From positions 1,550,001 through 1,614,000 of the forward strand of contig NC_014414.1 of assembly GCF_000152825.2 (NCBI RefSeq): a stretch of DNA of 64,000 bases, written 5' to 3'. The position numbers and the translations under genes are program-made. Positions 51,352-58,520 of the stretch are shown here, in pieces (the first letter of the stretch is position 1; each line of letters starts with the position of its first letter). Origin of the DNA: Parvularcula bermudensis HTCC2503 (GTDB lineage Bacteria; Pseudomonadota; Alphaproteobacteria; Caulobacterales; Parvularculaceae). Below the pieces are notes generated by a model that saw only the letters and a list, made by a program, of their open reading frames with translations, was not told the origin of the DNA and made no database searches.

Positions 51352-51762
51352 ATGACCCCGGTTCCCGGAAAAGATATTTTGATCGAGATCAGCGACGGCC
51401 AGGGTGGCTTCGAGATCCTTGGCGGGATGCGAGCCAAAACCTTTTCACTCAGTACAGATACGGTCGATGTCACCCATGCGGAAAGCGCCGGGTGGCGGGC
51501 TTTGATGCCGGAAGCCGGGATCAGACGGATGAGCGTCAGTGGAAACGGTTTGTTCATCGACGATCAAGCCGCGGCAAGGGCCCAAAACAGTCTCCTTTCG
51601 GCCCAGGTTGACGAGATGCGATTGTCGCTCCCTTCCTTTGGCCATTTCGTGGGCCCCTTCATGGTGACGACGATCGATTATTCGGGAACCTATAAAGGCG
51701 AGGCGACGGTCTCACTCTCCTTTGCCTCGGCGGGAGAAGTTCAATTCACGGGGAGTGCATAA
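51352..51762 (+). CDS. GTA major tail tube protein, TP901-1 type (g9)
   Basis: The tail tube subunit. GKDILIEISDGQGGFEILGG, THAESAGWRALMPEAGIRRM and SVSGNGLFIDDQAAARAQNS are typical of TP901-1-like major tail proteins. ATG 51352 has AGGAG at 8 bp. An open frame extends upstream inside g8 but without family similarity. The stop overlaps the g10 start by 1 bp. Confidence 0.92.
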   Translation: MTPVPGKDILIEISDGQGGFEILGGMRAKTFSLSTDTVDVTHAESAGWRALMPEAGIRRMSVSGNGLFIDDQAAARAQNSLLSAQVDEMRLSLPSFGHFVGPFMVTTIDYSGTYKGEATVSLSFASAGEVQFTGSA

Positions 51763-52094
51763 TGGGCAGTACAGCAACGATAAGGATCGGTGAACGGCAG
51801 GTTGGCTTGTCCCTCACCCTCGGCGCGCTGGCCGAAATTGAGGATGCTCTCGGCGCCCCAAGCCTGTCTGAGCTGGCTGTGAAGTTGGCGAACCCCTCCG
51901 CCGGTCAACTCCTTGTGATCCTCAAAGCCTTGATGCGCGCGGCCGGGGACGAGGACGCCTTTGATCGTCTCGAAGGGGAGGGGGTCAATCTGCGGGAAGT
52001 GCTCGCGGCGATCGCCGCCCTTTTCCGCGATGGCCTTGGAGGGCCGCTGCCGGGAAAGTCGACGCAAACGCGACTCGCTGGGGTGGCTGGATAG
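51762..52094 (+). CDS. GTA tail assembly protein g10 (unshifted product)
   Basis: A 110-residue protein of the GTA gene-10 family. LSLTLGALAEIEDALGAPSL and the later AGQLLVILKALMRAAGDEDA are the characteristic parts. It occupies the position of lambda G in the tail operon, between the tail tube and tape-measure genes. The family domain ends near ALFRDGLGG; the last ten residues after the slippery AAG lie in the reading-frame overlap. A heptamer at 52052-52058 would let a fraction of ribosomes shift into the -1 frame and make a longer fusion protein. Confidence 0.85.
   Translation: MGSTATIRIGERQVGLSLTLGALAEIEDALGAPSLSELAVKLANPSAGQLLVILKALMRAAGDEDAFDRLEGEGVNLREVLAAIAALFRDGLGGPLPGKSTQTRLAGVAG
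52052..52058 (+). other. Candidate -1 ribosomal frameshift site G GGA AAG
   Basis: The g10 reading frame runs CCG GGA AAG TCG here, giving the X XXY YYZ arrangement of a -1 slippery heptamer. It is identical to the heptamer of the phage lambda G/GT tail chaperone genes. A one-base backward slip joins g10 to the g10.1 frame that begins GTC GAC. It lies 34 bp before the g10 stop. Confidence 0.7.
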
Positions 52095-52255
52095 CGCTTT
52101 GGCTCGGGGCGACATCTCGTCCGTTATCGGAATTATGGTCAATGCGTCTCGATCATTGGGCGGCTTTGTTGACCTTCTGGCAAAGGTCGGGCGACGCAAC
52201 AACGATGAGCCGAGATGGCTTGAACAGGCTGATCGACAGTCATCGGAGGGAGTGA
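52058..52255 (+). CDS. GTA tail assembly chaperone g10.1-like frame, expressed by -1 frameshift
   Basis: The -1 frame after the heptamer is open for 65 codons, up to a TGA that is four bases before the g11 start. It carries GATSRPLSELWSMRLDHWAA and TTMSRDGLNRLIDSHRRE, which match the pattern of the small GTA tail chaperone (an aromatic-x-Met turn, a helix, then an MSRxxL helix). No ATG, GTG or TTG lies between the heptamer and the conserved part. The first ATG in this frame (52142) falls inside it. With the shift, a fusion of about 164 residues results. The family call is from memory of the g10.1 pattern. Confidence 0.65.
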   Translation, partial: VDANATRWGGWIALWLGATSRPLSELWSMRLDHWAALLTFWQRSGDATTMSRDGLNRLIDSHRRE

Positions 52256-54274: not shown

Positions 54275-54717
54275 GGGCCCTTGATGACGTCCATATCGCC
54301 AATGCGGCTCGGCGCTGGCTGGGGACGCCTTACCGCCATCAAGCGAGCTGTCTCGGGCATGGGGCGGACTGTCTTGGCGTCATTCGCGGCGTATGGCGTG
54401 AGGTGGTGGGCGAGGAGCCTCAGGCACTTCCTCCTTATGCGCCTGGTTGGGCAAGAGGGGGCGACGCCGGGGCGCTCGGTGAGGCTGCCGCGCGGTGGCT
54501 GGAGCGCGAAACGGGGCCTCAGGATCCGCCGCCGCCGGGCCGGGTGCTGCTCTTTCGTCTCGCACGACAGGGGCCGATCACCCATTGCGGGATCATGGTT
54601 GAGGGGGGGGGGTTCGTCCACGCCTACCAAAATCGCGCCGTTACCCTGTCGCGTTTCGGCCGATATTGGCAGGCGCGCCTGGCGGGGGTCTTTCGTTTTC
54701 CGTTGACGGAGGGGTGA
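54271..54717 (+). CDS. GTA NlpC/P60-type cell-wall peptidase (g14)
   Basis: A 148-residue NlpC/P60 hydrolase, likely opening the recipient cell wall during DNA delivery. The catalytic cysteine is C34 in GHGADCLGVIRGVW, and the histidine is in PITHCGIMVEGGGFVHAYQN. The order hub, peptidase, tail tip is canonical. Its stop overlaps the g15 ATG by one base. Confidence 0.92.
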   Translation: MRALDDVHIANAARRWLGTPYRHQASCLGHGADCLGVIRGVWREVVGEEPQALPPYAPGWARGGDAGALGEAAARWLERETGPQDPPPPGRVLLFRLARQGPITHCGIMVEGGGFVHAYQNRAVTLSRFGRYWQARLAGVFRFPLTEG

Positions 54718-57700
54718 TGGGAACGACGCTTTCGACCGCCGGTTCATTACTGATCGAAGGGGCGCGGCGGTTGACGCCAGGCCTGATCGATGGGGCCACC
54801 GCCTATGCCGCCGGCCAGGTGTTCACCGCCGGCCAGAATCTCCTTTTCGGACCCGTCAGCCGGCAGAGCGAAGGACCGCGGCGGGAAGAAATCCGTTTAC
54901 AAACAGCATCGGAAGGGCGGGGTATTCCTCGGCTTTTTGGCCGCCAGCGGATCGGGGGGGCGGTGATCTGGGCCACCCCGTTCGAGGAACGCACGGAGGT
55001 TACCGAAAGCTCCAGCGGCGGTAAGGGCCTTTCGCGCAGTGTCGAGACCCGGCATGTGACATATCTCTACACCGTGTCCCTGGCCATCGCGCTCTGCGAA
55101 GGACCGATCACCCGGATCGCGCGGATCTGGGCGGATGGAGAACTGATCAGCCTTGAGGGGATCGACGTGCGTGTCCACCATGGCACGGAGACGCAAGACC
55201 CCGACCCGCTGATCGAAACCGTCGAGGGGAGCGACAGGGCACCGGCCTATCGGGGCATTGCCTATGTGGTGTTCGAAAATCTGCCCCTGGGGCGGTTCGG
55301 CAATCGGATCCCGCAGTTTAATTTTGAGGTCGAGCGGCAATGCCCGACCGATGATCCCTATAGCCTCGAACTAGCCCTCGAAGCGATTACGCTCATTCCC
55401 GGGGCAGGGGAGACCGTGTACGATCCGTCCCCGGTCTATACCGAGGAGGCCGAAGGGGTTGCCAAGGCGGAGAACGTGACCAATGGACTTGGCCTTCCGA
55501 ATGCGACGGCGTCCCTTGACCATCTTGCGGCGACTTTTCCTAATCTGAAGGCCGTTTCCGTGTTCGTCTCATGGTTCGGCGATGATTTGCGGGCGGGGCA
55601 GACGACGATTGCGCCACGGATTGAGGATCGTGCCCGCACCCTGCGGCCAGAGGGATGGTCAGTCGCGGGTGAAAATCGTGCCACAGCGCGGGAGGTCAGC
55701 CGCATTGACGACCGACCGGCCTATGGGGGAACGCCCTCGGATAAAAGCGTTCGTGCACTGATTTCTGATCTCAGGTCCCGGCAATTGTCGGTGGTGTTCA
55801 GCCCCTTTGTCTTGATGGACGTGCCGCCGGGGAACGGCTTGCCCGATCCATGGGGAGGGGAGGAGCAGGCAGCTTTTCCCTGGCGGGGGAGGGTGACGGC
55901 GGATCATCCAAATGACGATGGCACGGCCGCCGCCCGTCAGGCGGTGGAGGCGTTTTTCGACCGCTATGACTCGATGATCCTTCACTATGCGCATCTTTGC
56001 GTCGCCGCAGGCGGGGTCGATGTCTTTCTGTTGGGGTCTGAACTGCGGGGGCTCACGCGCTTGCGGGACGACACGGGTGCGCATCCCGCGGTCGATCGGC
56101 TACGTCAATTGGCGGCGGCCGTGCGACAAATCCTCGGACCCGACGTGCAGCTCTCCTACGCCGCGGACTGGACCGAATATGGCGCCTACCATCCCGACGA
56201 TGGCAGCGGTGACGTGCTCTTTCCCCTCGATTCGTTCTGGGCGGACGAGGCGGTCGATCTGGTGGCGATCGATAATTATATGCCGCTCACCGATTGGCGG
56301 GATGGACGCCAGCATGCGGATGCGGCGCTGTTCGATGGACCAACGGACCCGGATTATCTCGCCGCCGGGATCGCGGGCGGAGAGGGATATGACTGGTATT
56401 ACGCCGATGCGGCGGCGCGAGGGGCGCAGGATCGGACACCGATTCTTGATACGGCCCATGGGGAGGATTGGATCTTCCGTGTGAAGGATTTGCGATCCTG
56501 GTGGTCTGAGCCGCACCATGCGCGGCCCGGCGGCGCGCGAGCGGCGACCCCGACCCCTTGGCAGCCTCAATCGAAGCCGATCTGGTTTGCGGAGCTTGGA
56601 TGTGGCGCCGTGGATCGCGGAAGCAACCAGCCGAATGTGTTCTTCGATCCGAAATCGGTGGAGAGCGGTCGCCCCTATTTCTCCTCCGGTGCCCGTGACG
56701 ACCGGGTCCAACGACGCTTTCTTGAGGCGCATTTGTGCTATTGGGGCGACCCGCAAAACAATCCGATCTCGGCGCATTATGGCGGGGCGATGATCCCACG
56801 AGAGGGGATCTTCGCCTATAGCTGGGATGCCCGGCCCTTCCCGGCCTTTCCCCTGCGTCGCGATCTGTGGGCGGATGGAGAGAATTGGACCACCGGACAT
56901 TGGCTGACAGGTCGGGCGGGCAAGGTGCCCCTTGGCGCGCTGATCAAGGCGCTCACGTCGGAGGCGGGGATCGGTGCCGTCGATGTCTCAGCGGTCGATC
57001 AACTCGTGACGGGGTTTTTGCTGCCGGGGCCGATGCGGGTGAGAGAGGCCTTGGGCGCTCTCCTCGATATCTATCAAATCGATATGGTGGAGCGCGGCGC
57101 GCTTTTGGTGATGCGGCCGCGCGCCGGCCGTCCGGCGCTCACCCTTGGGCTGGAGGAGTTGGCGGTGGTGGGCGATGAGCCACCCATCACGATTGAACGT
57201 CTGCCGGCGGAGGAGGTCCCCGGCCGTTTGCGCCTCACCTTCACGGACAGCCTTGCCTCCTATGGCTCAGCGGAGGTGGCGATCAGCGATCCGCACCGGC
57301 AAGGGGCAGTGACGGCTTTTCGCGAAACTGCGCTCGTCCTCGAGCAGGGGGAGGCGGAGGGGCGGGCGGCCTCCCTGTTGGCTGAGGCGCAGGCCGCAAC
57401 CGTCCAGATCCGCTTTGCCCTGCCGGCCCATCGGCTGGAGATAGAGCCCGCCGATTGCCTTGAACTCGTCGATGGCGACCGGATCTGGCGGCTTCGTCTG
57501 ACGGAGATCCTTGATGGTCCCGTTCGTCAGGTGGAGGGGGTGACGATTGCCGAGGGCAGTTTCCAGGGCATCCACGGGGCTTTGCGCGGTCGCTCGGCGG
57601 ACATGGCCCCCCCCGCGGGGGCGCCGGCGGTGGCGTTTGCCGATCTGCCCCTCCTTCCCACCGGCCGGGATGAGGCGGTTCTCTACGCCTTTGCCGCGGC

Positions 57701-58520
57701 CGATCCCTGGCCCGGATCGGTGGCGGTTCATGCGGGGGCGGCGGCGGACGCCCCGCTCGCTTTCTCCCTTTCCTCCCCTGCGCGCCTTGGACGCCTCACC
57801 GCGCCCCTGGGCCCAGGTCCTCTCTATCGATGGGATCGCGCCGCGGCGGTCACCCTGACCCTTCCCCTCGGCAGTCTGGCGTCGGTCACCGAAGAGGCGG
57901 CGTTGTCGGGGGCTACCCTCACCGCCATCGATGCCGGGTCGGGCCGGTGGGAGCTCCTCGTCTGGCAAGATGCGATTCTCCTCCCCAATGGCGATTGGCA
58001 GCTCACAACCCTGCTCCGCGGCTTAAGGGGGACTGAGGCTGAGGCGGCTCTCGGGGCGCCGGCCGGGGCTCGGGTGATCTTTCTCCCCGCCAGTCCCAAG
58101 GCCGTCCCCCTCTCGCCCGATATTTGGGGGGAAAGCCGCGTCTTTCAGGCCGGCCCCACCGGCGCGACGCCCGGGGACTATCCCTTCGTGACGACCACTG
58201 TGCCGGTGGTCGGTGCTGGCGCGCGGCCTTTTTCGCCGTGTCACTTGCGCGCAAGGGCGGAGGGGCAGAACCATTTGCGTGTGAGCTGGATACGGCGCAG
58301 CCGCATTGGGGGGGATCGCTTTGATCGCGAAATTCCCTTGGGCGAAGGGCGCGAGGCTTATATCCTGCGCGGCTATGCCGAGGATGACAGTGAAATCGTC
58401 ACGCAAGAGGTCACATCCCCCACCGCCCTGATCCCCTCTGCTGGGCTGAAACGCCTTGAAGTCACGCAATGGTCTGAGACCTTTGGAGAAGGTCGCGCCG
58501 CGGTTCTCCATCTCTCTTGA
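54717..58520 (+). CDS. GTA giant tail-tip (megatron/host-contact) protein (g15)
   Basis: A 1267-residue protein that forms the tip of the GTA tail. Residues about 75-130 (GRGIPRLFGRQRIGGAVIWA) are the phage tail-tip N-domain. A TIM-barrel-like region follows, with LLGSELRGLTRLRD, DVQLSYAADWTEYGAYHPDD and AVDLVAIDNYMPLTDWRDG. A glycoside-hydrolase-like segment (KPIWFAELGCGAVDRGSNQP) supports the TIM domain reading. The C-terminal third is variable and Ala/Gly-rich, ending SETFGEGRAAVLHLS. The start is the ATG that overlaps the g14 stop; the open frame extends a little upstream inside g14. Confidence 0.95.
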   Translation: MGTTLSTAGSLLIEGARRLTPGLIDGATAYAAGQVFTAGQNLLFGPVSRQSEGPRREEIRLQTASEGRGIPRLFGRQRIGGAVIWATPFEERTEVTESSSGGKGLSRSVETRHVTYLYTVSLAIALCEGPITRIARIWADGELISLEGIDVRVHHGTETQDPDPLIETVEGSDRAPAYRGIAYVVFENLPLGRFGNRIPQFNFEVERQCPTDDPYSLELALEAITLIPGAGETVYDPSPVYTEEAEGVAKAENVTNGLGLPNATASLDHLAATFPNLKAVSVFVSWFGDDLRAGQTTIAPRIEDRARTLRPEGWSVAGENRATAREVSRIDDRPAYGGTPSDKSVRALISDLRSRQLSVVFSPFVLMDVPPGNGLPDPWGGEEQAAFPWRGRVTADHPNDDGTAAARQAVEAFFDRYDSMILHYAHLCVAAGGVDVFLLGSELRGLTRLRDDTGAHPAVDRLRQLAAAVRQILGPDVQLSYAADWTEYGAYHPDDGSGDVLFPLDSFWADEAVDLVAIDNYMPLTDWRDGRQHADAALFDGPTDPDYLAAGIAGGEGYDWYYADAAARGAQDRTPILDTAHGEDWIFRVKDLRSWWSEPHHARPGGARAATPTPWQPQSKPIWFAELGCGAVDRGSNQPNVFFDPKSVESGRPYFSSGARDDRVQRRFLEAHLCYWGDPQNNPISAHYGGAMIPREGIFAYSWDARPFPAFPLRRDLWADGENWTTGHWLTGRAGKVPLGALIKALTSEAGIGAVDVSAVDQLVTGFLLPGPMRVREALGALLDIYQIDMVERGALLVMRPRAGRPALTLGLEELAVVGDEPPITIERLPAEEVPGRLRLTFTDSLASYGSAEVAISDPHRQGAVTAFRETALVLEQGEAEGRAASLLAEAQAATVQIRFALPAHRLEIEPADCLELVDGDRIWRLRLTEILDGPVRQVEGVTIAEGSFQGIHGALRGRSADMAPPAGAPAVAFADLPLLPTGRDEAVLYAFAAADPWPGSVAVHAGAAADAPLAFSLSSPARLGRLTAPLGPGPLYRWDRAAAVTLTLPLGSLASVTEEAALSGATLTAIDAGSGRWELLVWQDAILLPNGDWQLTTLLRGLRGTEAEAALGAPAGARVIFLPASPKAVPLSPDIWGESRVFQAGPTGATPGDYPFVTTTVPVVGAGARPFSPCHLRARAEGQNHLRVSWIRRSRIGGDRFDREIPLGEGREAYILRGYAEDDSEIVTQEVTSPTALIPSAGLKRLEVTQWSETFGEGRAAVLHLS

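Follow-up and report, generated by a model that had tools for sequence, protein, structure and literature searches.

The slippery heptamer of the phage lambda G/GT genes is GGGAAAG. According to PMC5009743, −1 shifting at a low level connects gpG with gpGT in a ratio of 30:1, it is through the T part that the major tail subunit is bound, and G_GGA_AAG is rated highly shift-prone in E. coli. Caulobacter phage phiCbK, whose gp93/gp94 slip on AAAAAAC, and Colossus, which slips on GGGAAAC, likewise carry an alphaproteobacterial phage chaperone pair ahead of the tape measure, with a −1 extended form (PMC3556154). A chaperone frameshift is implied for most of the R. capsulatus phages described in PMC8601537, and the same kind of argument appears for a Pseudomonas phage chaperone in PMC12846349; the +1 shift proposed for a Wolbachia hydrolase in PMC10299305 is a separate matter. 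For the GTA of Rhodobacter type (RcGTA), PMC9765227 counts g10.1 as a separate gene, one of the cluster genes under 300 nt, and the available parts of PMC10783043 and PMC9022992 are silent on the g10/g10.1 pair. Our search of the open-access literature, which leaves subscription papers mostly uncovered and does not prove absence, found no account of a g10/g10.1 frameshift in a GTA. The mechanism is thus already known in phages, and its GTA instance is apparently undescribed in the literature searched.

The locus studied here resembles lambda G/GT in its slot between tail-tube and tape-measure genes, in a putative −1 shift late in the first gene and in a predicted rare extended form; it differs in belonging to a domesticated GTA (gene transfer agent), a bacterial particle of viral descent, and the likeness is known from gene arrangement, not from homology of g10 and gpG. 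The comparison with phiCbK and Colossus, which are phages with other slip sites, is also one of arrangement and not of homology. With RcGTA g10/g10.1 (the rcc01693 family) the locus shares the gene families PF11836, PF09550 and TIGR02216, the slot, and the GTA markers g12, g13 and g15 of the cluster, but most Parvularculaceae g10.1 have no start and follow a slip site.

The window, by which we mean the whole 64-kb stretch analysed (G000:C1:1550001-1614000), comes from a genome of 2,902,643 bases on one contig. It contains, in order, genes for terminase, portal, protease, capsid and connector proteins, followed by g9, g10, g10.1, g11, g12, g13, g14 and g15, the g-numbers being those of the earlier note and of RcGTA usage (Table 1). 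Profile matches place g12 in the Rcc01695 family and g13 among the GTA baseplate hubs, and further GTA markers were found for portal, protease, capsid and NlpC, with the large terminase recognised via Pfam. Head and tail genes in order together with a megatron, the marks of an RcGTA-type cluster, are thus present, and judged by its genes, the megatron foremost, the cluster is a GTA. The matches of g11 are weak, that to Tape_meas_lam_C lying slightly under the model's cut-off.

Table 1. Features of the g9 to g15 region, in coordinates of the window
Feature	Position	Strand	Basis
g9, major tail (tube) protein	51352..51762	+	PF06199 Phage_tail_2 3e-40; TIGR02126
g10, short chaperone form, zero frame, 110 aa	51762..52094	+	PF11836 Phage_TAC_11 'GTA-gp10' 2.7e-13
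GGAGGG, Shine-Dalgarno-like, 8 nt before heptamer	52038..52043	+	sequence
Slippery heptamer G GGA AAG	52052..52058	+	register in g10 frame; kept in 29/38 family loci
g10.1, −1 frame chaperone extension, 65 aa after slip, and stop	52058..52255	+	open frame, relatives' matches, HMM
Overlap of both frames, slip site to g10 stop TAG	52059..52094	+	sequence
g11, tape measure protein, 177 aa	52259..52792	+	Tape_meas_lam_C 2e-4, RcGTA_tape E 0.0084
g15 megatron, GTA marker of the cluster	54717..58520	+	NF048004 GTA_megatron 1437.7 bits, cut-off 800

We consider it very probable, from the comparison of sequences set out below, that g10 and g10.1 form one translational unit, joined by a programmed −1 frameshift of the lambda G/GT type that has been kept in a domesticated GTA. 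Two overlapping frames lie between the major tail protein and tape measure genes. Codons of g10 begin at 51762+3k, a frame shared by GGA (52053-52055) and AAG (52056-52058), so that the heptamer stands as X XXY YYZ in the g10 frame, at the place and in the register that the earlier note had given. Positions 51965 to 52255 are open in the −1 frame, whose first ATG, GTG or TTG is an ATG at 52142, inside the conserved motif, which agrees with the claim that it is start-less ahead of its conserved part; the predicted slip product, recomputed as 99 + 65 = 164 residues, also has the length first proposed. GGGAAAG is not rare in the window, where both strands together hold 19 copies against 13.07 expected; a heptamer in one genome therefore proves nothing, and it is the relatives that decide.

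For these we searched the family designated f1 by the search tool, taken as Parvularculaceae since a Parvularculaceae MAG (L207) and two MAGs of Marinicaulis (L211, L212), which we take to be a member of the Parvularculaceae, share its junctions, matching those of L059, L057 and L054 (genomes G108, G126 and G124). A g10 was found in 38 of 62 Parvularculaceae genomes, and in 30 of the 38 it lies 2.5-4.1 kb upstream of a GTA_megatron on the same contig and strand. The remaining eight are G121, G110 and G103, where contig ends interrupt the locus, G102 and G139, on contigs of 7.8 and 6.7 kb, G108, and the divergent copies of G069 and G100. Of the 38 g10 loci, 29, spanning 7 genera by the tool's numbering and not to be read as independent counts, have GGGAAAG in register with g10 and a g10.1 that lies in the −1 frame; L068 is among them. 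This supports the frameshift reading of the earlier note. Both of the other same-genus genomes with g10.1 (L037, L041) keep the heptamer, and CCG GGA AAG is also present in G123, which falls outside the 38 as its contig begins within g10. Four loci (L042, L046, L058, L060) have no heptamer and a −1-frame g10.1 whose ATG overlaps the g10 stop (ATGA), and two (L059, L066) have g10.1 in the +1 frame with candidate starts. The divergent g10 copies L070 and L071 carry AAAAAAA and GGGAAAA. At L069 (G137), g10 lies near a GTA megatron, g10.1 is missing, and the stop of g10 and the start of g11 share an ATGA.

The slip site is conserved at the level of codons: it reads CCG GGA AAG at 28 of the 29 loci and CGG GGA AAG at one, in genes where, upstream, GGA accounts for 21 of 294 glycine codons (7%) and AAG for 35 of 85 lysine codons. 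Dual coding offers no explanation for the conservation of GGA, because ahead of the slip site nothing requires translation in the −1 frame. As background, in-frame heptamers of the form X XXA AAZ or X XXT TTZ number 5 in 2003 codon positions and 1 in 3150 upstream of the slip site of frameshift-type loci.

Outside the family, the picture in the same order is a different one. At 45 of 47 loci from its other families g10.1 has its own start and no heptamer was called (30 in the −1 and 15 in the +1 frame), the other two having no usable g10.1 or g10; these 47 are drawn from 49 matches outside the family, and the last two, L105 and L111, show own starts as well. Related genomes with an independent start and no heptamer, which the earlier note had named as evidence against its reading, are thus the rule in the other families and are found in four family members, though not at 29 of the 38 family loci; frameshifting therefore belongs to some GTA lineages, not to all.

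Among 46 loci from other orders, 17 are of frameshift type with various heptamers, 17 have an own start, 4 have both, 4 neither, and 4 no usable gene. This survey covers 46 of 55 places, omitting four from the window or the same order and five below the cut-off (G425, G221, G506, G012, G226); L103 is probably a repeat of L086, and the 30 loci (L213-L242) of a PF09550 search over 385 class genomes stand outside all counts. In the genomes with frameshift-type loci, together with one that has both, the megatron scores over its cut-off in 10 of 18 and gives any match in 13 of 18, so that not all other-order loci are certainly GTAs. Six loci (L075, L077, L110, L114, L156, L157) have a −1-frame g10.1 with, by the rule of our script, neither heptamer nor near start, and L112 (G298) has three in-frame GGGAAAG at −76, −64 and −40 from the g10 stop, ahead of g10.1. 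L087, L088, L095 and L107 have GGGAAAC at the junction of more divergent g10 copies and are possibly related prophages; three of their four genomes have no GTA megatron match. Phage records gave no match to Parvularculaceae g10 at E <= 0.01, and plasmid records gave one match to g10, from Methylobacterium. Two environmental phage records, MW462191.1 and MW091529.1 (L243, L244), have a GTA-like g10/g10.1 that matches g10 of another order; their junction, A AAC CCT TGA with a TTG overlapping the stop, is ambiguous, and their deposited g10.1 begins at an internal ATG and loses the conserved FPW part.

The second site seen most often is C CCT TTY, which lies where the g10.1 motif begins. It is present in all three sampled genomes of one genus (L115-L117), in 35 of 40 IMG/VR loci (37 of frameshift type) and in 14 of 21 named genome loci (17 of frameshift type), including Rhizomicrobium electricum DSM 21034 (Micropepsales). 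The IMG/VR and named-genome samples were gathered by similarity and contain near-copies: L192 and L196 repeat L115 and L116, and L198/L161, L199/L159, L170/L172, L174/L175 and L156/L157 are look-alike pairs. From all of these we picked by hand, by their heptamer, a set of 45 CCCTTTY loci, leaving out near-copies and the CCCTTTCCCT loci (L074, L078, L080, L082, L083). CCT is thus present in all 45 by selection, and only the contrast with its use elsewhere is informative: upstream in these 45 loci, CCT makes up 4 of 116 proline codons. Among the 12 commonest spellings, TTT ends at least 31 of the 45 sites, versus 5 of 52 phenylalanine codons upstream.

Window g10 matches PF11836 Phage_TAC_11 with 50.2 bits (gathering cut-off 27.8), as do all 42 aligned g10. 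In an alignment of 41 −1-frame translations, drawn from 74 frameshift-type sequences (28 of the 29 GGGAAAG and 13 of the 45 CCCTTTY loci), 38 match PF09550 Phage_TAC_6 and 36 match TIGR02216 'rcc01693 family'. The −1 frame of the window itself matches neither of these nor any other Pfam or PHROGs model, and its sole NCBIfam row, at E 0.07, is meaningless; an HMM of the relatives' g10.1, built without the window, does find it, with 28.3 bits (E 1.6e-6 among 18,516 reading frames). The tail-chaperone motif that the earlier note saw in this frame is consequently assigned through the relatives' PF09550 matches and the HMM, and not by a family model of its own. Past the g10 stop, substitutions at −1-frame codon positions 1/2/3 number 145/85/243 in 15 pairs, and 608/419/899 in 55 pairs of the CCCTTTY group; by this pattern the −1 frame evolves as protein-coding sequence.

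AlphaFold models g10 with a mean pLDDT of 85.3 and a final helix ending at residue 92, the slip site (residues 97-99) falling below pLDDT 50, and g10.1 with a mean pLDDT of 79.3 and four helices. Searches of PDB sequences with the g10 profile gave no match at E <= 1, and Foldseek of the PDB with the g10 model none at E <= 0.001. With VIA, the g10 structure scored best (Z 3.4) against a functionally uncharacterised protein of a PICI-like element, and matches in a viral structure library were weak (best E 1.8e-3), several being labelled tail assembly chaperone.

That g10.1 is instead translated on its own, with no frameshift, from a non-canonical start codon or through reinitiation once g10 has ended, appears very unlikely. 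The own starts at or near the g10 stop of the other families and of the four −1-frame family loci speak for such translation, the Shine-Dalgarno (SD)-like sequence upstream of the slip site could be a remnant ribosome site, and at 19 of the 29 GGGAAAG loci some CTG, ATT, ATC or ATA lies between the slip site and the motif plus 5 codons. However, over the same stretch 23 of the 29 have no ATG, GTG or TTG (6 of 29 have one, reduced to L055 alone at the tighter limit of the motif plus 2 codons), and at L043 none occurs in the whole −1 reading frame; in the CCCTTTY set, 44 of 45 are without ATG, GTG or TTG and all 45 also without CTG, ATT, ATC or ATA. An independent start would, moreover, leave unexplained why the upstream frame holds an invariant heptamer that includes a rare codon, and heptamers are scarce where g10.1 has its own start. 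They are held by 5 of 49 such loci with g10.1 at −1 and by none of the 30 own-start −1-frame loci from the other families of the order, a sample in which no sorting mattered. A further zero, among the 1416 codon positions that make up the final 25 codons at 59 own-start loci, is due partly to selection, as 44 −1-frame loci among the 59 had been pre-sorted as heptamer-less and L055, L089, L090, L096 and L102, with heptamer and start, are omitted. The alignment of related junctions proposed in the earlier note thus bears out both the conserved heptamer and the missing starts for most of the family, but not for the four of 38 loci with an ATG of their own and no heptamer.

It is about as unlikely that g10.1 is decaying in the window genome, with the heptamer a leftover of chance or of the protein sequence (P-G-K) and the −1 frame silent. 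The window's −1 frame does fall under Pfam detection, its branch in the tree is long (1.57), and four genomes of its genus lack both genes; yet the frame is intact to 52255 and is recognised by the HMM that excludes the window, GGGAAAG is kept in the same-genus L037 and L041, and its glycine codon is GGA, although 93% of glycine codons are not. Slippage of RNA polymerase instead of the ribosome would likewise join the frames, but we found no support for it and give it next to no credence: it needs single-base runs far longer than four, and neither GGGAAAG nor CCCTTTY contains a run of more than four.

Under the programmed −1 frameshift that we favour, the majority of ribosomes would read g10 through to its stop at 52092-52094, while a minority would slip back by one on G GGA AAG, the tRNAs re-pairing to GGG AAA, and continue to 52255. 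The 164-residue fusion would then comprise a folded N-terminal chaperone domain, a flexible linker and a small helical domain. On the model of lambda, g10 would coat the tape measure and the rare fusion would recruit the tail-tube protein, so that the frequency of slipping would set the ratio of the two chaperones; the slippage itself, its rate and this division of labour are what we infer. As trypsin cleaves at the K/V junction, a tryptic digest would give no peptide spanning GK-VDA, the peptide by which the earlier note proposed to detect the fusion.

The GGAGGG ahead of the heptamer is possibly a stimulator of the slip, the signal being suggestive only. At the 29 GGGAAAG loci SD-like pairing reaches −8.69 versus −6.39 for synonymous resampling, and it goes beyond the resampling mean at 27 of 29 GGGAAAG and 31 of 45 CCCTTTY loci, with a single-locus p<0.1 at just 6 of 29 and 7 of 45. 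On average the pairing peaks in 9-nt windows that begin 9-13 nt ahead of GGGAAAG at the 29 loci and 17-22 nt ahead of the heptamer in the CCCTTTY set. The SD spacing best for −1 shifting is 10-14 nt, and the SD-like stretch lies closer to the heptamer than this optimum. A conserved RNA structure downstream seems an unlikely stimulator, since fold scores there are low, with mean z between −0.52 and −0.78; the values of −0.52 and −0.68 count against the frameshift reading.

The tree built from 35 family loci requires four switches between the frameshift and own-start states; three ATGA loci of one genus cluster (100/98) and L060 stands apart, with several long branches and the direction of change unproven. 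The best reading of these sequences is that frameshifting was replaced by stop-start overlap in some lineages. In four genomes of the window's genus (L245 in G015, L246 in G079, L247 in G134, L248 in G136), GTA clusters with a megatron have g9 followed directly by g11, with no g10 match above 3.8 bits and no g10.1 match above 7.9 bits. Their g11, recognised by eye and with only a short stretch in G136, has about 102-109 residues versus the 177 of the window, and a shortened tape measure may accompany the loss of the chaperones. These four GTAs without either gene, and L069 without g10.1, indicate that some lineages can do without the pair. The earlier note's suggestion that retained frameshifting would imply ongoing selection on the ratio of the two chaperones is weakened by the same-genus GTAs that lack both genes.

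On balance, we think it likely that several alphaproteobacterial GTA lineages make their second tail chaperone solely as a frameshift fusion, so that GTA production in them needs programmed slippage; that the site has turned over, GGGAAAG in Parvularculaceae and CCCTTTY in Micropepsales-like lineages, with the mechanism kept; that lineages losing it either switched to an ATGA overlap or came to lack the chaperones and to have a shorter tape measure; and that C CCU UUY would be a natural bacterial −1 slip site. The frameshift would explain why g10.1 can be missed or shortened by gene callers, and it adds a testable requirement for GTA production. Within one gene pair, frameshift, stop-start overlap and gene loss offer a natural comparison. 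A slip site kept across most of the family's GTA clusters suggests that the tail is still built to specification, which bears on the question of whether GTAs are functional or decaying.
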